Shown here: one piece after another, positions 6,487-58,479 of the stretch | How the letters are laid out: each line of letters opens with the position of its first letter | Numbering within the stretch: the stretch's first letter is position 1 | Assembly (NCBI GenBank): GCA_019449595.1 | Contig: JAGRPL010000006.1 | Span: forward strand, 233,451-297,450 | Direction of reading: 5' to 3' | DNA length: 64,000 nt | Origin: Rhodoferax sp. | GTDB lineage: Bacteria > Pseudomonadota > Gammaproteobacteria > Burkholderiales > Burkholderiaceae_C | Notes under the pieces: model-generated | What the model saw: the letters and a program-made list of their open reading frames with translations, nothing else | What the model was told of the DNA's origin: nothing | Databases searched by the model: none | Translations under genes and position numbers: made by a program

Positions 6487-7641
6487 ATGACCGATTTGCA
6501 AAAACGTGCGCTGCTGAAAGTGGCAGCGCTGACCGCTGTGGCCAGCGCTGCGCTGGTAGGTTGCGGCAAGAAGGAAGAGCCGGCACCGGCGCCCGCTCCC
6601 GCGCCGGCCGCTTCGGCGCCCGCGCCCAAGCCGGCACCGCTGAAAATTGCGTTTGCCTACGTGGGCCCGGTGGGCGACGGTGGCTGGAGCTTCGCCCACG
6701 ACAACGGCCGCAAGGCGGTGGAGAAGGAATTTGGTGACAAGGTCGCCACGACCTTTGTGGAGAGCGTGGCGGAGTCGGCCGACGCCGAGCGCGTGTTCCG
6801 CGACATGGTGGGCCAGGGCAACAAGCTGATTTTCGGCACCACGTTTGGCTACATGGAGCCCATGCTCAAGGTCGCGGCCGACAACAAGGATGTGCATTTC
6901 GAGCACGCCACCGGCTACAAGACCGCCGAGAACATGAGCACCTATGACAGCCGCACCTACGAAGGCGCGTACATGGCAGGCGTGATTGCCGGCAAGATGA
7001 GCAAGACCGGCACGCTGGGCGTGGTGGCCTCGGTGCCAATTCCCGAAGTGATCCGCAACATCAACAGCTTCACGCTGGGTGCCCAGAGCAGCAACCCCAA
7101 GATCAAGACCAAGGTGGTGTGGGTCAACGAGTGGTTCAACCCGCCCAAGGAAACCGAAGCCGCCACCAGCCTGATCAACGGCGGTGCCGACGTGCTGTTC
7201 CAGAACACCGACTCGCCGGCCGTGCTCAAGACCGCGCAGGACAAGGGTAAGCGCGCCTTCGGCTGGGATTCCGACATGACCGCCTACGGTCCCAAGGCCC
7301 ACCTGGCGTCTTCCATCATCAACTGGGGTCCCTACTACATCAAGACCGTCAAGGACGCGCTGGATGGCAAGTCGGTGAGCGGACAGAGCTGGTGGGGCGT
7401 GAAGGAAGGCGCTATTGACATCGTGTCCATTGCCGACGACGTGCCGGCCGAAACCAAGGCCAAGGTCGACGAGGTGAAGGCCGGCCTGAAGGACGGCAGC
7501 TTCGTCATCTGGAAGGGCCCGATCGTGGACAACACCGGCAAGGTGCAGATTGCCAAGGACGCCGTGGCGGACGACAAGTTCCTGGGCGGTCTGAATTTCT
7601 ACGTCAAGGGCGTGGAAGGCAAGATCCCAGGCGGCAAGTAA
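6487..7641 (+). CDS. BMP family ABC transporter substrate-binding lipoprotein
   Basis: Lipobox LVGC then Ala/Pro linker; KIAFAYVGPVGDGGWSFAHDNGR...; SD AGAAGGA upstream. Confidence 0.92.
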   Translation: MTDLQKRALLKVAALTAVASAALVGCGKKEEPAPAPAPAPAASAPAPKPAPLKIAFAYVGPVGDGGWSFAHDNGRKAVEKEFGDKVATTFVESVAESADAERVFRDMVGQGNKLIFGTTFGYMEPMLKVAADNKDVHFEHATGYKTAENMSTYDSRTYEGAYMAGVIAGKMSKTGTLGVVASVPIPEVIRNINSFTLGAQSSNPKIKTKVVWVNEWFNPPKETEAATSLINGGADVLFQNTDSPAVLKTAQDKGKRAFGWDSDMTAYGPKAHLASSIINWGPYYIKTVKDALDGKSVSGQSWWGVKEGAIDIVSIADDVPAETKAKVDEVKAGLKDGSFVIWKGPIVDNTGKVQIAKDAVADDKFLGGLNFYVKGVEGKIPGGK

Positions 7642-21322: not shown

Positions 21323-22426
21323 ATGTACAAAAACCTCGCAGCCACGTTCGTGGCGGCCTGTGCTTTCTCGCTCGCACCTGTGGGTGCTTTTTCCCAGACC
21401 CAGGACACGCCCCCAGCCGCACCGTTGAAGGTCGGCTTTGTGTATGTCACGCCCCTGACCGATGCCGGCTGGGTGCGCCAGCACGAGCAGGGGCGCCTGG
21501 CCCTGGAGGCCGCCCTGGGCAAGGCCGTGCAGACCCGCTACGTGGAAAACGTGGCCGAAGGGCCGGACGCCGAGCGTGTCATCCGCGACCTGGCACGCCA
21601 GGGCCACACACTCATCTTCACGCCCAGCTTTGGCTACATGGAGCCCACGCTCAAGGTGGCGCAGGAGTTTCCGGACGTGAAGTTCGAGTCCATCACCGGC
21701 TACAAGACAGCGCCCAACGTAGCCGCGGCCAATGCGCGCTATTACGAAGGACGCTACCTGGCCGGCATTGCCGCCGGGCGCATGACCCGCAGCAATCTGG
21801 CGGGGTATGTGGCGGGTTTCCCCATTCCCGAAGTGCTGCAGGGTATCAACGCCTTCACGCTGGGCATGCGCTCGGTCAATCCCCAGGCGCAGGTCAAGGT
21901 GGTGTGGCTCAATGAGTGGTTCAACCCTACGCGCGAGCGCGACGCCGCCATGACCCTGTTCAACCAGGACGTGGACGTGATCGCCTTCCACACCGGCTCC
22001 ACCGCCGTCATGGCCGCCGCCCAGGAGCGCGGCAAGCTGGCCGTGGCCTACCACTCCGACATGCGCAAGATCGCGCCCGACGCCCAGATCGTGGCCGTCA
22101 CCCACCAGTGGGGCGACTACTACATCCGGCGCGCCCGCGCCGTGCTGGCCGGTACCTGGAAGAGCGGCACCGTGTGGGGCGGCGTGCGCGAGGGCATGAT
22201 CCGCGTGGGCGACTTTGGCTCCAAAGTGCCCAAGGCCGTGCAGGCGGAAGTGCTGGCACGCCAGAAAGACATTGCCCGTGGCACCTTGCACCCGTTCCAT
22301 GCCACCCAGGTGGTGCGAGATAACGAGGGCCACCCGGTGATCGAGAAGGGCCAGACGCTGAGCGACGCCCAGATTCTGGGCATGAACTGGCTGGTGGAGG
22401 GCGTGCAGGGAAAACCCGGCCATTAG
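21323..22426 (+). CDS. BMP family ABC transporter substrate-binding protein (second copy, no lipobox)
   Basis: Paralogous to the 6487 gene (PSFGYMEPTLKVAQEFPDVKFESITGYKTAPN); Sec-type signal peptide. Confidence 0.9.
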   Translation: MYKNLAATFVAACAFSLAPVGAFSQTQDTPPAAPLKVGFVYVTPLTDAGWVRQHEQGRLALEAALGKAVQTRYVENVAEGPDAERVIRDLARQGHTLIFTPSFGYMEPTLKVAQEFPDVKFESITGYKTAPNVAAANARYYEGRYLAGIAAGRMTRSNLAGYVAGFPIPEVLQGINAFTLGMRSVNPQAQVKVVWLNEWFNPTRERDAAMTLFNQDVDVIAFHTGSTAVMAAAQERGKLAVAYHSDMRKIAPDAQIVAVTHQWGDYYIRRARAVLAGTWKSGTVWGGVREGMIRVGDFGSKVPKAVQAEVLARQKDIARGTLHPFHATQVVRDNEGHPVIEKGQTLSDAQILGMNWLVEGVQGKPGH

Positions 22427-22457: not shown

Positions 22458-23780
22458 ATGAAAGCCTACCGCGCCTGCCTTCTCTGGTTTGCCCCGCACA
22501 GCGAGGGGCCGGCCCGTGCCCTGCTGGAGGAAGATGGCCTGCTGGTGGTGGGCCCCAATGCGGCGGGCGTGCAGGTGGTGCAGGCGGTGGGCGCTTACCG
22601 CGACGTGGCGGGCCGCTACCCGGACGTGCCGGTGGAGCACTTCCCGGGGCGCATCATTGCGCCGGGTTTCGTGGATCTGCACACCCATTACCCGCAGACC
22701 AACGTGATAGGGTCTCCCGCCGAGGGGCTGCTGCCCTGGTTGGAGTACTACACATTTCCAGAGGAAAAACGCTTTGCAGCGCCCGACTACTGTGCGCAGG
22801 CAGCTACGTTTTTCATAGCAGAACTGCTGCGCAACGGTGTGACGACGGCGTTTGCCTTCGCCACCTCGCACCCCGCATCGGTCGACGCCCTGTTCAGTGC
22901 GGCCCAGGCCCGGCACCTGCGCCTGGTCACCGGCCTGTGCCTGATGGACCGCCACGCCCCGGCGGAGCTGCTGAACCAGCCCGTGGCGGGTGCAGCGGCC
23001 GATGCCACCGAGCAGAGCCTGCTGGACTCCGAGGCCCTGATCCAGCGCTGGCACGGCCAGGGCCGCCTGGGTTACGCCATCACACCCCGTTTCGCACCCA
23101 CCAGCACCGACGCCCAGTTGCGCGGCGCGGGGGCACTGGCGGCGCGCTACCCGGACGTGTGGGTCCAGTCCCACGTGGCCGAGAACCGGCAGGAAATTGC
23201 CTGGGCGCGTACGCTGTTTCCTGCTTCGCGCAGCTACCTGGCCACGTATGCCGATTTCGGCCTGATGCGCCCGCGCGCCCTCTACGCCCACTGCATCCAC
23301 TTCGACGATGACGATCGTGCTCTGATGCGCGACACCGGGGCGGCGGCGGCGGTGAGCCCTACCAGCAACCTGTTCCTGGGCAGCGGTTTCTTCGACTATG
23401 CCGGGGCGGACCGCGCAGGCTTTGCGTACGGCCTGGCCAGCGACGTGGGCGCCGGCACCTCGTTCAGCCCGTTTCACACCATGCTGGGGGCCTACTACGT
23501 GGGGCGCGAGGGGCAGACCAAGCCGGGCGTATCCCTGCGCCCGCAGCAGCTGTGGTGGCAGCACACGGCCGGCGCCGCGCGCGCTGCGGGGCTGGACGGC
23601 GTGGTGGGCAATCTGCTGCCGGGCTGCGAGGCCGACTTTGTGGTGCTCAATCCGCAGGCCACGCCCTTGCTGGCGCGCAAGACCGCCCTGGCTGCGAATC
23701 TGGACGAACTGCTGTTCGCCCTGATCGTGCTGGGCGACGACCGGGTGGTGGAACGCACGGTGATTTCACAAGCCTTTTAG
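22458..23780 (+). CDS. guaD: Guanine deaminase (amidohydrolase family)
   Basis: GRIIAPGFVDLHTHYPQTNVIGS; HVAENRQEI; SDVGAGTSFSPFHTM. Confidence 0.87.
   Translation: MKAYRACLLWFAPHSEGPARALLEEDGLLVVGPNAAGVQVVQAVGAYRDVAGRYPDVPVEHFPGRIIAPGFVDLHTHYPQTNVIGSPAEGLLPWLEYYTFPEEKRFAAPDYCAQAATFFIAELLRNGVTTAFAFATSHPASVDALFSAAQARHLRLVTGLCLMDRHAPAELLNQPVAGAAADATEQSLLDSEALIQRWHGQGRLGYAITPRFAPTSTDAQLRGAGALAARYPDVWVQSHVAENRQEIAWARTLFPASRSYLATYADFGLMRPRALYAHCIHFDDDDRALMRDTGAAAAVSPTSNLFLGSGFFDYAGADRAGFAYGLASDVGAGTSFSPFHTMLGAYYVGREGQTKPGVSLRPQQLWWQHTAGAARAAGLDGVVGNLLPGCEADFVVLNPQATPLLARKTALAANLDELLFALIVLGDDRVVERTVISQAF
22761..22819 (-). repeat. Dispersed repeat, copy 3 (inside guaD, antisense orientation)
   Basis: Minus strand GCTATGAAAAACGTAGCTGCCTGCGCACAGTAGTCGGGCGCTGCAAAGCGTTTTTCCTC. 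Confidence 0.85.
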
Positions 23781-23828
23781 GCCTCCAGCGCCCGCGCTCA
23801 TTGCGCAGGCAGCTCTTCTTTTAGTAGC
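23771..23828 (-). repeat. Dispersed repeat, copy 4 (spans guaD stop codon and intergenic region)
   Basis: Minus strand GCTACTAAAAGAAGAGCTGCCTGCGCAATGAGCGCGGGCGCTGGAGGCCTAAAAGGCT. Confidence 0.85.
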
Positions 23829-23875
23829 GTTTGCGGCCTGCTTACAATCACCCCCAACTTAGGAGTTGTGTTCCC

Positions 23876-39232: not shown

Positions 39233-41938
39233 TTAGTCTGCCAGTGCGCGGTCGACGACCTCGCGCACGTCATTGCTCAGGTCGGCCTTGGCGGCCACGC
39301 GGGCCAGGGCCTCGCGGGCGGCGCTGCGGTAGGGTTCGGCCAGGCGCTTCCAGCGGTCCAGGGCGCGGGCCAGGCGGGCGGCAACCTGCGGGTTGATGCT
39401 GTCGAGTTCGATCACGCGTTCGGCCCAGAACACATAGCCGGCCGCATCCGGGCGGTGGAAGCCACCGGGGTTGGCGCTGCAGTAGCTGAAGATGACGCTG
39501 CGCGCCCGGTTGGGGTTGCGGATGTGGAAGTCCGGGTGGGTGAGCAGCTGGCGCACGGCCGGCAGCACCTGGCCGTTGCGGTCGGGGGCGCCGGCCTGCA
39601 GGGCAAACCACTTGTCGAGCACCAGTTCCTCGTCCTTGAACAGGCTGTGGAACTGGGCCAGCGCCGGGGTGGCCAGGGCGTGGCCGCTGGCCACCAGCGC
39701 CTGCAGGGCGTTGAAGCGGTCGGTCATGTTGCCGGCATCCTTGAAGCGCTGCAGGGTCTTGCCGGGCCAGACGGCATCGCCCGTCTCAACGGCGGCCAGG
39801 CACAGGAAGTTGAGCGCCATGCCGGCCAGCGCGCGCCGGCCGGCCGAGACGGCGTCGGGGCGGTAGCCGCCGGTGTCCTGGTGGGCGTCAAACGCCCATT
39901 GCCAGTCGGCCTGCAGTTGCACGGCCAGTTGCAGGCGCATGGACTCGCGCACCGCGTGGATGCGCTGGGGGTCGACCACGTCGAGCTGCTCGGCGATGTA
40001 GGTCTCGCTGGGCAGGGTCAGCACCAGCTCCTTGAAGGCGGCGTCCAGCGTGGGGCTGCGCAGCACGCTGCGCATGGCTTCGATATAGGCATCATTCAGC
40101 ACGCCAGGTGCCGTGGAACCTGCGTCGACAGTTATTGAATTGATAGCGCTGCGCAGGGCCAGACGTTGCCCGGCTTCCCAGCGGTTGAACGGGTCGGGGT
40201 CGTTGGCCAGCAGGGTCAGCAGCTGGGCGTCGGTGTAGTCGAACTCCAGCACCACCGGGGCGCTGAAGCCGCGCAGGATCGAGGGCACGGGCTCTTCGTC
40301 CACCTGGGTGAAGGTGATGCTTTCGTCTTCGCCGGTCATCACCAGCAGGTGGCTGCCGGTGGCGGCCGCATCACGGCCTTGCAGTGTGAGGGGCAGGGCC
40401 GCGCCGCTGGTGCCGACCAGGCCCAGGCTGATCGGGATCACAAACGGTTCCTTGACCGTCTGGCCGGGCGTGGGCGCGCAGTGCTGGCGCAGGCGCAGGG
40501 TGTAGGTGCGCGCTGCCGCATCGAACTGGCCGCTGGCCTGCACGCGGGGCGTTCCGGCCTGGCTGTACCAGCGCTTGAACTGGGGCAGCAGGCGCGCCAG
40601 TTCGGAGGCCGGGTTGGCGTCGGCAATGGCCTGGGCAAAGTCGTCGCAGGTCACGGCCTGGCCATCAAAGCGTTCGAAGTACAGCTTCATGCCCCGGGCG
40701 AAGCCGTCGCGGCCCACCAGGGTCTGCATCATGCGCACCACCTCGGCACCTTTTTCGTAGATGGTGACGGTGTAGAAGTTGTTGATTTCGATGTAGCTGT
40801 CCGGGCGCACGGGGTGGGCCATGGGGCCCGCGTCTTCGGGAAACTGGGCGGTGCGCAGCACGCGCACGTCTTCAATGCGCTTGACGGCGCGGGCGCTGGG
40901 CTCGGCGCACAGGTCCTGGCTGAATTCCTGGTCGCGGAACACGGTCAGGCCTTCCTTCAGGCTGAGCTGGAACCAGTCGCGGCAGGTGACGCGGTTGCCG
41001 GTCCAGTTGTGGAAGTACTCGTGGCCCACCACGCTTTCGATGTTGGAGTAATCCACATCGGTGGCCGTGGCCTGGTTGGCCAGCACGTACTTGGTGTTGA
41101 AGATGTTCAGGCCCTTGTTCTCCATGGCGCCCATGTTGAAGTCGCTGGTGGCGACGATCATGAAGCGCTCCAGGTCCAGCGAGAGGCCAAAGCGGGCCTC
41201 GTCCCAGGCCACGCTGGCCATGAGCGAATGCATGGCGTGCTCGGTCTTGTCCAGGTCGCCGGGGCGCACATAGACCTGCAGCAGGTGTTCCTTGCCGGCG
41301 CGGCTGGTGATGCGCTGCTCGCGTGCCACCAGCTGACCGGCCACCAGGGCAAACAGGTAGCTGGGCTTCTTGTGCGGATCGACCCACTTGGCAAAGTGGC
41401 GGCCGTCTTCCAGCGTGCCCTGTTCCACCAGGTTGCCGTTGGAGAGCAGCACCGGGTACTTGGCCTGGTCGGCGCGCAGCGTCACGGTGTAGCTGGCCAT
41501 CACATCGGGGCGGTCCAGGAAGTAGGTGATGCGTCGGAAACCCTCGGCCTCGCACTGCGTGAAGAACGAGTCCTGGCTGACATACAGGCCCGAGAGCTTG
41601 GTGTTCTTCACGGGCGAGCAGGTGGTGAAGATTTCCAGATCGAAGGGCTCCAGCCCCTCGGGCAGGTTTTCCAGCACCAGCTGGCTGCCTTCCATCTTGA
41701 AGGAGGTGCCCTGGCCGTTGACCAGCACGCGGGCCAGGTTGAGTTCCTCACCGTCGAGTTTCAGGGCTTGTGCGGTCACGTCGGGGTTGCGGCGCAGGCG
41801 CATCTTGTTGAGCACGCGGGTCTTGGCCGGGTCCAGGTCAAAGGTCAGATCAACGGTGTCAATCCGGTAGGCGGGTGCCGTGTAGTCACCGCGGTGGATT
41901 ACCGTGGCAGGGCCTTCGTTTTCACGCAGTTGCAACAT
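39233..41938 (-). CDS. pepN: Aminopeptidase N
   Basis: [50 protein letters not shown]. Confidence 0.96.
40093..40146 (-). repeat. Dispersed repeat, copy 5 (inside pepN, diverged)
   Basis: Minus strand GCTATCAATTCAATAACTGTCGACGCAGGTTCCACGGCACCTGGCGTG. Confidence 0.65.
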
Positions 41939-42614
41939 GCAAGCTCTCCAGAAATTTTGATTCGAACAATTCGTTGTAGTCCCGCACATGGGCCAGCACG
42001 TGCGGCCCGTCCAGCTCGCGTGCGCTGTGGCCGCTGCAGATGGCCACGGCGCGCATGCCGGCGCGCCGCGCCGCTTCGATGCCAAAGGGCGCGTCTTCAA
42101 ACACCACACAGGCACTGGCCGGCACACCGATGCGCCGGGCCACTTCCAGGAAAATTGCGGGTTCGGGCTTGCCGGGCAGGCCCTCGTCGCCGCCCACGAC
42201 CGCTTGTGGCGGGACGGGCATCTTGAGGTGCGACAGCACGAAGGCGATGTTCTGCTGGTCGCCCGCGGTGCCCACGCCCATTTTCAGGCCGCGTGCCACG
42301 GCCTGTTCCGAGAAGGCGCCAAAGCCGGCCACCTCGGAAAAGACCGGTGCAAACAGCTCGCGGTAGATCACCTCTTTTTCGTGGATGAGGGCCCAGGCCG
42401 CATCGTCATCCATCTCGCGCTGGAACAGCTCGCGGATGCATTCGGCGCCGTTGCGCCCGGTGGTGCGGCGCATCAGGTCGGGCAGGTCCAGATTGAGGCC
42501 GTGGCGGCGTGTGAACTCCACCCAGCTCTGGGCGTGCCAGGGCATGGAGTCGACCATGGTGCCGTCCATGTCAAAGATGAAGGCCTTGACCGGCCCGGTG
42601 CCCTGCATGCTCAC
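41922..42614 (-). CDS. HAD family phosphatase
   Basis: [36 protein letters not shown]. Confidence 0.92.
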
Positions 42615-43794: not shown

Positions 43795-44697
43795 TCAGGC
43801 AATAAAGCGCTCGATCAGCGCCGCCAGGACCTCGGGCTGGTCGTGGTGCATCATGTGGCCGGCGTCGGGAATCAGGGCGATTTCCACATCGGGCACCGCC
43901 CGGATGCGCTCGTGGTACTGGGCCAGGGTGTACTTGCCTTTCCACCACATGTCCAGGCTGTTGTCGGAGGCCTCCACGGCCAGCACAGGCATGCTCAGAC
44001 GCCGGTAGTGCGCCAGGGCTTCTTCCACGTGGTACAGGTGCGCGCTGGTGATCTTGTGTGCCGGCTGGCCCATGATGGCCCACTGGCCCTGCACGGTTTC
44101 CTGGGCCCAGTGCCGCGCCAGCCATTCGGCCTTGTCCGGGCTCAGGCGGGGGTTGGTCTTCATCAGCCGGCGGGCCACGCCGCTGACAGCGTCGTAGGCC
44201 TTGAGGTCCATCTCGCCGCGGTGCAGCTTCTTTAACTCGTCCATCCACGTGGCGTAGCGCAGCGGGGCCTGCTCGGGCAGGGTGGCGGGCAGGCCAAAGC
44301 CTTCCAGGTTGACCAGCCGGCGGATGCGTTCGGGGCGCACGCCGGCGTACATCATCACCACGTTGCCGCCCAGGCTGTGCCCCACCAGGTTGACGGGCTG
44401 GTCGGGCGCGTAGTGGTCCAGCAGGAAGTCCAGGTCCGCCATGTAGTCGGGGAACCAGAAGGCGTCCACCCCGCCCGAGGGGGTGCGGCCGTAGCCGCGC
44501 CAGTCGGGGGCAATGATGTAGTGGTCCTGCGAGAAGGCGTCCACCACGAACTGGTAGCTGGCCGCTACGTCCATCCAGCCGTGGACCATGAACAGGGGAA
44601 TCTTGTCGGGGGCGGGTTCGCCCCAGACCTGCACGTGGTATTGCAGCGTGCGTATAGGTACAAACTCGCTACGGAAAACTCTTTTGACTTGGTACAT
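43795..44697 (-). CDS. Alpha/beta hydrolase
   Basis: PLFMVHGWMDVAASY; VNLVGHSLGGNVVMMYAG. Confidence 0.9.
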   Translation of the reverse strand: MYQVKRVFRSEFVPIRTLQYHVQVWGEPAPDKIPLFMVHGWMDVAASYQFVVDAFSQDHYIIAPDWRGYGRTPSGGVDAFWFPDYMADLDFLLDHYAPDQPVNLVGHSLGGNVVMMYAGVRPERIRRLVNLEGFGLPATLPEQAPLRYATWMDELKKLHRGEMDLKAYDAVSGVARRLMKTNPRLSPDKAEWLARHWAQETVQGQWAIMGQPAHKITSAHLYHVEEALAHYRRLSMPVLAVEASDNSLDMWWKGKYTLAQYHERIRAVPDVEIALIPDAGHMMHHDQPEVLAALIERFIA

Positions 44698-44723
44698 TGA
44701 CACACATCATACGGAGGTGCCTT

Positions 44724-46529
44724 GTGAGCGTGAGTCAAAGCAGTGACAGGAAGGTGCTGGCGCAGCCGCCCGCCGCGTACACCCGGCTGCATGCTGCATT
44801 CCGGTGGACGGTTCCCGAGGCGTTCAACATCGCCCAGGTGTGCTGCGCGCGCTGGGCGGCGCAGGCGGATGCTACAAAAAAAATAGCTGTCTGCGCATAT
44901 TCCACGGGCGCTGAAACCGTTTTTTATACCTACGCGCAGCTGCAGGAGCAGGCCAACCGCCTGTCCGGTGTGCTGGCCGTGCTGGGGGTGCAACGGGGCG
45001 ATCGGGTGGCCATTGTCATGCCCCAGTGTTTCGAGACCGCGGTGGCCTACATGGCCGTGCTGCAGATGGGTGCGGTGGCCATGCCCCTGTCGCTGTTGTT
45101 TGGCCCCGACGCCCTGGAGTACCGGCTGCACGACAGCGAGGCGGTGCTGGCCATTGGCGACGCCAGCGCACTGGACAGCCTGCAGACCGTGCGCGACAAC
45201 TGCCCCCTGCTGCGCACCGTGCTGGGTGTGGGCGATCTGGACGCCACGCGGGGGCGGGCCGACCTCAATTTCGCTGCCGCGCTGGCGCAGGAGCGCGCCC
45301 ATTTCGCACCGGTGCCCACGCTGGCGGACGACCCCGCCGTGCTGATCTACACCAGCGGCACCACCGGCAACCCGAAGGGCGCGCTGATTCCGCACCGGGC
45401 GCTCATCGGCAACCTGCCGGGCTTTGTGGCCAGCCAGAACTGGTTCGGCTTTGACGGCCGGGACAACCGGGACACCGAAGCCGTATTCTGGTCGCCGGCC
45501 GACTGGGCCTGGACCGGCGGGCTGATGGACGCCCTGCTGCCCACCCTGTACTTCGGGCGGCCCATCGTGGCGTACAACGGTCGCTTCAGCCCGCAGACGG
45601 CGCTGGCGCTGATGGGGCAGTGCGGGGTCACGCACACCTTTCTGTTCCCCACTGCGCTCAAGGCCATGATGAAGGCCTACCCGGGGTCGCCCCGGCGCAC
45701 GGTGGCGCAGCAGTTCGGGCTCAAGCTGCAGGCCATCATGAGCGCGGGCGAGGCGGTGGGTGACGCTGTGTTTGCCTACTGCCAGCGGCAGCTGGGCGTG
45801 GCGCCCAACGAGATGTTCGGCCAGACCGAGATCAACTACATCGTGGGCAACTGCAATGCCCTGTGGCCCTCCAAACCCGGCAGCATGGGCATGGGCTACC
45901 CCGGCCACCGGGTGGCGGTGATCGGTGACGACGGGCAGGAATGCCCGGTGGGCGTGCCGGGCGATGTGGCCCTGCACCGCCTGGACGTGCACGGCCAGCC
46001 GGACCCCATCTTCTTCCTGGGCTACTGGAAGAACGAGGCTGCCACCCGGGCCAAGTTCACCGGAAAGAATGGCGAGGGGGAGTGGTGCCGCACCGGCGAC
46101 CTGGCGGTGCGCGATGCCGAGGGCTACCTCTGGTACCAGGGCCGTTCGGACGACGTGTTCAAGGCCGCTGGCTACCGCATCGGCCCGGGCGAGATCGAGA
46201 ATTGCCTGGTCAAGCACCCCGCGGTCATGAACGCCGCCGTGGTGCCCAAACCCGACCCCGAGCGCGGCGCGCTGGTCAAGGCCTATGTGGTGATTGCTCC
46301 TGATTTCATAGCTGCTTGCGCAGACAATACGGTCGCCTTGGAGCAATTGAAGGCCAAATTGGTGGCCGAGCTGCAGGCCCATGTGAAGGGCCTGCTGGCG
46401 CCCTACGAGTATCCCAAGGAGATCGAGTTTCTGGACGCGCTGCCCATGACGACCACCGGCAAGGTGCAGCGGCGGGTGTTGCGCCTGCAGGAAGAGGAGA
46501 GAGCCCGTAAACTCGTTGCTCACTCCTGA
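44724..46529 (+). CDS. AMP-dependent acyl-CoA/acetyl-CoA synthetase family protein
   Basis: SD GGAGGT then GTG; YTSGTTGNPKGALIPHRAL; GYRIGPGEIENCLVKHPAV; TTTGKVQRRVLR. Confidence 0.93.
   Translation: MSVSQSSDRKVLAQPPAAYTRLHAAFRWTVPEAFNIAQVCCARWAAQADATKKIAVCAYSTGAETVFYTYAQLQEQANRLSGVLAVLGVQRGDRVAIVMPQCFETAVAYMAVLQMGAVAMPLSLLFGPDALEYRLHDSEAVLAIGDASALDSLQTVRDNCPLLRTVLGVGDLDATRGRADLNFAAALAQERAHFAPVPTLADDPAVLIYTSGTTGNPKGALIPHRALIGNLPGFVASQNWFGFDGRDNRDTEAVFWSPADWAWTGGLMDALLPTLYFGRPIVAYNGRFSPQTALALMGQCGVTHTFLFPTALKAMMKAYPGSPRRTVAQQFGLKLQAIMSAGEAVGDAVFAYCQRQLGVAPNEMFGQTEINYIVGNCNALWPSKPGSMGMGYPGHRVAVIGDDGQECPVGVPGDVALHRLDVHGQPDPIFFLGYWKNEAATRAKFTGKNGEGEWCRTGDLAVRDAEGYLWYQGRSDDVFKAAGYRIGPGEIENCLVKHPAVMNAAVVPKPDPERGALVKAYVVIAPDFIAACADNTVALEQLKAKLVAELQAHVKGLLAPYEYPKEIEFLDALPMTTTGKVQRRVLRLQEEERARKLVAHS
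44871..44930 (+). repeat. Dispersed repeat, copy 6 (inside acyl-CoA synthetase, N-terminal region)
   Basis: GCTACAAAAAAAATAGCTGTCTGCGCATATTCCACGGGCGCTGAAACCGTTTTTTATACC. Confidence 0.9.
46296..46353 (+). repeat. Dispersed repeat, copy 7 (inside acyl-CoA synthetase, C-terminal region)
   Basis: GCTCCTGATTTCATAGCTGCTTGCGCAGACAATACGGTCGCCTTGGAGCAATTGAAGG. Confidence 0.8.
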
Positions 46530-48562: not shown

Positions 48563-48763
48563 AGAGCCTTTGAGTAGCGATTCAAGACCTTGATTATTTC
48601 TTATTTGGCAACGTATCGGTGACTAAATGGGTATTTCTCTCTGTCGATGGAAATTTTAAAGTTCATCCCATCGACGAGACGCATCTTTAAACGCCCCATC
48701 GATGCCGTTCAAACAACCGCCGGTTGCCCGAACGGGATCTTCAACTTTAAAAGGATACTCATC

Positions 48764-49309
48764 ATGAAAAAGAATGCATACGCTGCCGCCATCGCTCTGG
48801 CTATCACCACTTTGGCTGCCGGCCAGGTTCTGGCTGCTGATACTTCCGTCCAAGGCAAGACCCGCGACCAGGTGCGCGCTGAACTGGCTGAAGCCCAGCG
48901 CACCGGCGACATCGTTGTGGGCAAGAGCGGCGACGAACTGGGCGTGGGCCACAAGCTCAACGAAGTGGCTCCCGCCAGCTACCCGGCCAAGGCTGTGGTC
49001 CAGGGCAAGACCCGCGCCCAGGTGAAGGCCGAGCTGGCTGAAGCACAGCGCACCGGTGACATCGTCGTGAGCGCCAATGCTGGCGACGAGCTGGGTGTGG
49101 GCCGCAAGCTCAACGAAGTGGCTCCCGCCAGCTACACGGCTGCCAAGGCTGACCCCCAGGGCAAGACCCGCGCCCAAGTGAAAGCCGAACTGGCTCAAGC
49201 CCAACGCAACGGTGACATCGTGGTGGGCAACAGCGGTGACGAACTGGGCGTAGGCCGCAAGCTCAACCAGGTGTTCCCCGGCCGCTACGCTGCCAAAGCC
49301 GTCAACTGA
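48764..49309 (+). CDS. DUF4148-type exported protein with three tandem repeats
   Basis: Signal peptide; three GKTRxQVxAELAxAQRxGDIVV..GDELGVGxKLNxVxPxxY units. Confidence 0.85.
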   Translation: MKKNAYAAAIALAITTLAAGQVLAADTSVQGKTRDQVRAELAEAQRTGDIVVGKSGDELGVGHKLNEVAPASYPAKAVVQGKTRAQVKAELAEAQRTGDIVVSANAGDELGVGRKLNEVAPASYTAAKADPQGKTRAQVKAELAQAQRNGDIVVGNSGDELGVGRKLNQVFPGRYAAKAVN

Positions 49310-54998: not shown

Positions 54999-56395
<1,397 letters not shown>

Positions 56396-56415
56396 GCAGC
56401 CTGGGGCTGGCTGGA

Positions 56416-57130: not shown

Positions 57131-57168
57131 GGCAGGGATTTTGGCATGTGCGCGACAATCGGGGCTGT

Positions 57169-58479
57169 ATGGAATCACTTACCACCCTTGAAGACTGGCT
57201 GGCGCATTGCGAGCGCCTGCATCCCACCACCATAGACCTGGGCCTGGAGCGCGTGCGCACCGTGGCGGACCGCATGGCCATCCGGTTCGAATGCCCGGTG
57301 ATCACTGTGGCCGGCACCAACGGCAAGGGTTCCACCTGCGCCATGCTGGAAGCCATTCTGGGGCAGGCCGGTTACCGCACCGGGGTGTACACCTCGCCCC
57401 ATCTGGTGCGCTTCGAGGAGCGGCTGCGCCTGTTGGGAGAAGCGGTGGATGCTAGCCATTTGATAGCAGGCTTCGCAGCCGTCGAGCGGGCCAGAACCCA
57501 AAATGGCGCTGAAATATCGCTGACCTATTTTGAGTTTTCTACCCTCGCCATCCTGGATGTGATGGCGCGCAGCGGCCTGGATGCGGTGATTCTGGAAGTG
57601 GGTCTGGGCGGACGGCTGGACGCGGTCAACATCATCGACCCCGACTGCGCCATCATCACCAGCGTCGATCTGGACCACATGGAATTTCTGGGCAACGACC
57701 GCGAAAGCATCGGGCGGGAGAAGGCCGGCATCATGCGTACGGGCCGCCCGGTGGTGGTGAGCGATCCCATGCCGCCCCAAAGCGTGCTGGACCATGCGCT
57801 GGAAGTGGGCGCTGACCTGTGGCGCTTTGGCGTGGATTTCAATTTCTCGGGCGACAAGCAGCAGTGGGGCTGGGCCGGCCGCGGACGGCGCTACAGCGGG
57901 CTGGCCTATCCGGCCCTGCGCGGCGCCAACCAGCTGGTCAACGCCAGCGGCGCGCTGGCCGCGCTCACCGCCTTGCGTGAGCAACTGCCGGTCACCGCGC
58001 AGGCGGTGCGCAACGGGTTGGCGTTTGTGGAGCTGCCGGGGCGCTTCCAGATCGTTCCGGGGCAGCCAACGCTGGTGCTGGATGTGGCGCACAACCCGCA
58101 TTCGGTGGCGGCACTGGCGGCCAATCTGGACGCCATGGGCTATTTCCCCACCACGCACGCCATTTTTGGCGCCATGGCCGACAAGGATCTGGCACCCATG
58201 TTCGCCAAGGTCGCTCCGCTGATCGACCGCTGGTATTTCACCGATCTGCCCACGCCGCGTGCCGCGACGGGCGCGGCCCTGCAGGCGCAGTGGCAGGCCC
58301 AGAATACGCGCAAGGACACGGCGGCGCTGGCGTTTGCCGACCCCATGCAGGCGCTGCAGGCGGCCATTGATGCCGCAGACCCCACTGATAGAATCATCGT
58401 CTTTGGATCGTTCTATACCGTGGGTGGCGTGCTGCAACAGGGCGTACCGCGGCTGCATGCCAAACACCTGAACTCCTGA
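57169..58479 (+). CDS. folC: Dihydrofolate/folylpolyglutamate synthase
   Basis: VAGTNGKGSTCAMLEAIL; LTYFEFSTLAILDVM; DVAHNPHSVAALAANL. Confidence 0.95.
   Translation: MESLTTLEDWLAHCERLHPTTIDLGLERVRTVADRMAIRFECPVITVAGTNGKGSTCAMLEAILGQAGYRTGVYTSPHLVRFEERLRLLGEAVDASHLIAGFAAVERARTQNGAEISLTYFEFSTLAILDVMARSGLDAVILEVGLGGRLDAVNIIDPDCAIITSVDLDHMEFLGNDRESIGREKAGIMRTGRPVVVSDPMPPQSVLDHALEVGADLWRFGVDFNFSGDKQQWGWAGRGRRYSGLAYPALRGANQLVNASGALAALTALREQLPVTAQAVRNGLAFVELPGRFQIVPGQPTLVLDVAHNPHSVAALAANLDAMGYFPTTHAIFGAMADKDLAPMFAKVAPLIDRWYFTDLPTPRAATGAALQAQWQAQNTRKDTAALAFADPMQALQAAIDAADPTDRIIVFGSFYTVGGVLQQGVPRLHAKHLNS
57451..57515 (+). repeat. Dispersed repeat, copy 9 (inside folC)
   Basis: GCTAGCCATTTGATAGCAGGCTTCGCAGCCGTCGAGCGGGCCAGAACCCAAAATGGCGCTG. 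Confidence 0.7.

Follow-up and report, generated by a model that had tools for sequence, protein, structure and literature searches.

Some bacteria recognise their own DNA during uptake by dispersed sequence signals. Those of Pasteurellaceae, the uptake signal sequences (USS), combine a GC-rich core with AT-tracts, occur in many dispersed copies and are reported to be products of point mutation, not inserted elements (PMC7811141). In H. influenzae, their AT-tracts are rigid and bent (PMC7811141). The DNA uptake sequences (DUS) of the betaproteobacterial Neisseriaceae are high-copy signals that occur as lineage dialects (PMC3630211); they measure about 10–12 bp, reach thousands of copies and have a known receptor, ComP. 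Beta-proteobacterial repeat elements (BRE) are dispersed in Rhodoferax, Polaromonas, Delftia and Acidovorax, with some copies inside coding sequences; they are about 90 bp long, have a GC content of 69% in Bordetella and are often arranged in tandem (PMC3110155). A further repeat family inside coding genes is formed by the Rickettsia palindromic elements. These are in-frame insertions.

The motif described here was studied in a window of 64,000 nucleotides within the 3.37-Mb genome of a Rhodoferax-like bacterium (G000). Literature searches by exact sequence and by topic yielded no description of it, with BRE as the nearest reported repeat, and no such signal was reported for this bacterial family in the papers searched. 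The motif is about 70 bp long, with A-tracts near −36, −25 and +18 flanking the core TGCGCARRCAGCTAY…ATAGC. With USS it shares the GC-rich core with AT-tracts, the many dispersed copies and an origin by point mutation, but its sequence is unrelated and its A-tracts flank the core both upstream and downstream. Like DUS it is betaproteobacterial, high-copy and split into lineage dialects, whereas DUS are far denser. It may differ from BRE, going by their description, in that its GC content averages 47% (against 66% in the flanks) and its copies were mostly single in the sample analysed. Unlike with Rickettsia palindromic elements, proteins hosting the motif are mostly not longer.

Counting with the core pattern TGCGCARRCAGCTAYNANWWWNATAGC and up to three mismatches gave 226 matches in G000, of which 122 lie on the forward and 104 on the reverse strand; the reversed control gave none. 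H. influenzae has about 2,200 USS. As expected of USS or DUS, the motif was dispersed and strongly over-represented on both strands, in G000 as well as in a congener assembled as one contig (G113). Along the latter, the strands were interleaved (26 plus, 30 minus) with no replichore switch, and a polar chromosome signal of the KOPS or AIMS type was therefore rejected. On the contigs of G000, adjacent copies lay on the same strand in 55 of 88 cases, a weak correlation above chance (permutation p 0.017).

A profile built from 86 distinct G000 copies, a sample weighted to better-matching ones, spans about −39 to +30 and fades at its edges with no sharp boundary. Fifty-one of these 86 copies were intergenic, and this enrichment between genes counts against a role in uptake, as the evidence for substitution comes from coding sites. 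Only four of the 51 lay in divergent intergenic regions, which disfavours a promoter site. Within genes, one reading phase was used by 18 of 19 same-strand copies and one by 14 of 16 opposite-strand copies; the favoured phases avoid stops and yield alanine-rich peptides such as AQTAxKxIA.

In the window, eight sites scored 37.5–63.6 bits with a 70-bp matrix from whose training set the copies in the window had been left out, compared with a maximum of −11.6 bits in a background of 30 simulated 64-kb sequences. The highest score (63.6 bits) belonged to a plus-strand copy with an intergenic core at 56332–56401. Other plus-strand copies were found at 2202–2271 (45.9 bits), in a minus-strand open reading frame (1310–2929), at the 3′ end of guaD (23763–23832, 52.2 bits), where the core is intergenic and about the first 18 bases overlap the gene, and at 40082–40151 (41.8 bits), antisense in the minus-strand gene pepN (39233–42127; TIGR02414). 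On the minus strand, two copies lie in a plus-strand gene for an AMP-binding acyl-CoA synthetase (44697–46529; PF00501), one antisense at 44867–44936 (49.6 bits) and a second at 46292–46361 (55.1 bits), and a degenerate copy (57447–57516, 37.5 bits) is antisense in the plus-strand gene folC (57148–58479; TIGR01499). A plus-strand core with two mismatches to the pattern was additionally present at 37–63, the upstream half of this copy being mostly outside the window.

The eighth scored site lies in guaD (22458–23780, plus strand), which encodes a guanine deaminase of 440 amino acids (TIGR02967 and PRK09228 above cut-off) and whose close named relatives are mostly from Rhodoferax. The first-pass annotation had claimed a repeat at this position that did not lengthen the protein, and both statements were borne out. 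The copy occupies 22754–22823 on the plus strand (49.9 bits, well above the simulated maximum), its core TGCGCAGGCAGCTACGTTTTTCATAGC at 22793–22819 differs from the family pattern by one mismatch, and its codons encode CAQAATFFIA. All 80 bacterial orthologues aligned ungapped through the motif stretch, and so did four solved enzymes of the guanine deaminase type or related to it (6ohb, 2ood (Blr3880), the human enzyme 2uz9 and the related 2i9u). In motif-free relatives, this stretch is made up of GC-rich codons. Among 81 sequences including the window gene, 43 were carriers (1–4 mismatches), 32 were without the motif (7–12 mismatches) and six were intermediate; the states were graded from 1 to 7 and then from 9 to 12 mismatches, with intermediates at 5–7. 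In carriers, GC3 was 0.29 in the core as opposed to 0.78 elsewhere in the gene, and third-position similarity was higher in the core (0.71 versus 0.55), whereas the reverse was true for non-carriers (0.42 in the core versus 0.59). Carriers retain the motif over long divergence. In a tree built without the motif region, in which the direction of change is unrooted, carriers and non-carriers clustered and about three changes were needed, so the site is old and was gained or lost rarely; this is compatible with an old gain and later losses. Since neither gains nor losses came with a change in length, both proceed by substitution.

Ten further coding sites were compared with five motif-free congeners, which lack copies of this dialect and might carry another dialect elsewhere in their genomes, and with four congeners having 248–481 copies. 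Their hosts, as identified by family searches, were the AMP-binding acyl-CoA synthetase (two sites), pepN, folC, coaBC, nadE, hpnC, hemD, an RsuA-type pseudouridine synthase and a fusion of OHCU decarboxylase and allantoate amidohydrolase. Codon replacement with no consistent indel was found at nine of 11 coding sites including guaD (eight of ten without it), which agrees with the way in which coding copies of USS and DUS arise. An orthologue alignment had been proposed as the check, and it located a cluster of substitutions exactly at the motif: over all comparisons, amino-acid identity of motif-free congeners to G000 was 82% in the flanks and 37% in the core, and that of carriers was 82% and 72%, respectively. 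Hundreds of copies of about 70 bases are scattered through the genome, and at most of the coding sites compared they were written into genes by changed letters and not by inserted DNA.

The exceptions were pepN, which is two to three codons longer in carriers than in four of the five motif-free relatives, and the fusion gene. At the latter site (L012:1501–1527), the protein of the carriers G000, G301 and G303 exceeds that of G302, G306 and two motif-free species by about 11 residues at the motif; it is the sole insertion-like site. With a length change at two of 11 coding sites, indels cannot be said to be absent altogether. The first-pass annotation had tentatively extended its reading from guaD to folC and the synthetase and had also named pepN for the comparison. 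Copies were indeed present in all of these genes, twice in the synthetase. No core indel relative to motif-free relatives was seen in folC and at the first synthetase site, and the second synthetase site showed codon replacement with a one-codon gap in a single relative (G325); pepN differed in length. Replacement instead of transposition was supported for guaD and most other coding sites, the two with length changes being the exceptions. These two length differences, together with the mostly intergenic position of the sampled copies, are what a miniature mobile element or REP-type repeat spreading by insertion, with some copies in frame in genes, could account for. Such an element is nevertheless very unlikely, as most coding sites lack a consistent indel, the length of guaD is constant out to the human enzyme, the profile has no sharp boundary and the only insertion-like difference amounts to 33 bp, which is shorter than the motif. 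Hosts longer by the length of an element, as known from MITE, REP or RPE insertions, were not found, the 33 bp in the fusion gene being a partial exception, and an insertional repeat was rejected on the coding-site alignments.

Replacement without indels is also predicted by one-shot templated overwriting, in which ectopic gene conversion or a retroelement would copy a donor repeat over existing codons. The first-pass annotation had left the choice between such a conversion and strong convergence. Intermediate guaD states with 5–7 mismatches, the preservation of the frame and of many residues, and the persistence of shared copies in divergent carriers all speak against overwriting in one step, which we regard as having only a slim chance of being right. 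Graded states, long-kept copies and genome-wide dialect shifts between species make one-shot copying unnecessary and fit a stepwise accumulation under a recognition bias, as in uptake signals, a convergence of which that bias would be the cause.

The three A-tracts (−38 to −35, −27 to −24 and +16 to +20) are spaced by 11 and about 43 bp, which would be close to whole helical turns. They tolerate A-runs, T-runs and ApT steps, with TpA nearly excluded in G000 and likewise in G113. Rigid A-tracts have this sequence signature, so that the motif combines a core with putatively rigid AT-tracts of the USS type, which may be comparable to those of H. influenzae (PMC7811141). Pairing of the arms GCTAT and ATAGC is conceivable, and the repeat was therefore considered as a source of a structured RNA, an attenuator or a terminator. 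Such a role is hardly credible, as the arms lack compensatory changes (positions 14/22 were T-A in 44 copies, C-A in 18, T-G in 13 and C-G in two), the orientation relative to genes has no strong bias and an Rfam search gave no match. With neither a covarying helix nor a known family found, this candidate was dropped.

Across the genomes sampled, the motif is restricted to one GTDB family, and its copy number per genome runs from 0 to 644. Matches occurred in 103 of the 301 genomes sampled from the family, with up to 644 copies, and in 44 of the 60 sampled from the genus (0–491 copies), whereas 49 other families of the order showed isolated matches only (one or two per genome). The core occurs in lineage-specific dialects, as known from USS and DUS, which differ even within a genus (TGCGCAGACAGCTAT in G000, TGCGCAAGCAGCTAT in G113 and GCTGGAGCAGCTAT in G198), and in genus g31 it reads TGCCTAAGCAGCTAT; the surrounding architecture is kept across dialects. 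These data bear on the main rival explanation, namely that the motif is bound by an abundant protein, chromosome-organising or other, at hundreds of sites kept by selection and not by transformation. The A-tracts and the long footprint would suit a DNA-bending protein, and the genome-wide spread and the conservation at guaD point in the same direction. A copy number from 0 to about 490 inside one genus, a wholesale change of dialect between congeners and the lack of replichore polarity on G113 are difficult to reconcile with it, and this role is considered unlikely, although it deserves to be taken seriously.

High copy number on both strands, substitution, A-tract architecture and dialects form the pattern of USS and DUS (PMC7811141, PMC3630211, PMC2397512), and the best explanation is therefore that the motif is probably uptake-signal-like and arose by point mutation together with biased recombination, which would make this the third bacterial family with such a signal. 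Strand balance, family restriction, the wide range of copy numbers and dialects suit USS or DUS better than they suit a transposon, an RNA or a polar signal of the chromosome. In the proposed mechanism, the type IV pilus/ComEC machinery of natural transformation would have a DNA-binding component that prefers motif-bearing DNA, giving fragments with a better-matching copy a higher rate of uptake and of recombination into the chromosome. Point mutations that bring a partial match closer to the motif, genic or intergenic, would then spread by biased uptake and homologous recombination (molecular drive), and copies would accumulate in place by substitution where the protein tolerates it. Once the preference is lost or shifted, copies would decay by substitution or adopt a new dialect. 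It counts against an uptake signal that the length of the motif (about 70 bp) exceeds that of known USS and DUS and that its density is lower (in G000 about one copy every 15 kb).

ComEC and ComP_DUS-family pilins are present in G000, and the latter were found in 56 of 60 congeners, whether or not these carry the motif. Across these 60 congeners, PF16732, TIGR00361, TIGR00426 and PF12019 gave no split between motif-rich and motif-free species. As ComEC, ComP_DUS, ComEA-type and GspH/FimT proteins occur in both, no receptor stands out. The motif, its copy number, in-place substitution, A-tracts, dialects and family restriction are demonstrated; uptake, receptor, function and drive are putative. 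The chances are about even that Comamonadaceae-type bacteria possess their own system for self-DNA uptake, distinct from the ones in Neisseriaceae and Pasteurellaceae. Such a system would read a signal of about 70 bp whose A-tracts stretch over more than six helical turns, it would diversify into species-specific dialects, and hundreds of loci and many segments of proteins would have been remodelled by it. If true, it would become feasible to test how the specificity of uptake originates, is lost and changes its receptor in a third family, one that is environmental and has dialects and many motif-free sister species, and gene exchange in freshwater and soil bacteria would be easier to predict. 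The motif is also a clear example of a DNA signal reshaping protein, with residues altered at the motif and flanks conserved as elsewhere.

In mobile DNA, five exact matches were found in 2.9 million viral contigs, one weak match in phage and matches in eight of 72,556 plasmid records, phage and plasmid counts that may depend on how many Comamonadaceae records the collections hold. Seven of the eight plasmid records were labelled with Comamonadaceae genera or the family. The Rhodoferax antarcticus plasmid NZ_CP019241.1 (31.9 kb) has three motif places, which is dense for its size.

Two other repeats were observed in the window. The open reading frame at 48647–49309 has three DUF4148 matches (PF13663) arising from direct repeats of about 153 bp that are 80–93% alike (48832–49302). 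Furthermore, positions 6757–7079 and 21542–21864, 14.8 kb apart, are about 77% alike and sit in open reading frames of similar length (6487–7641 and 21323–22426), which are likely paralogous genes.
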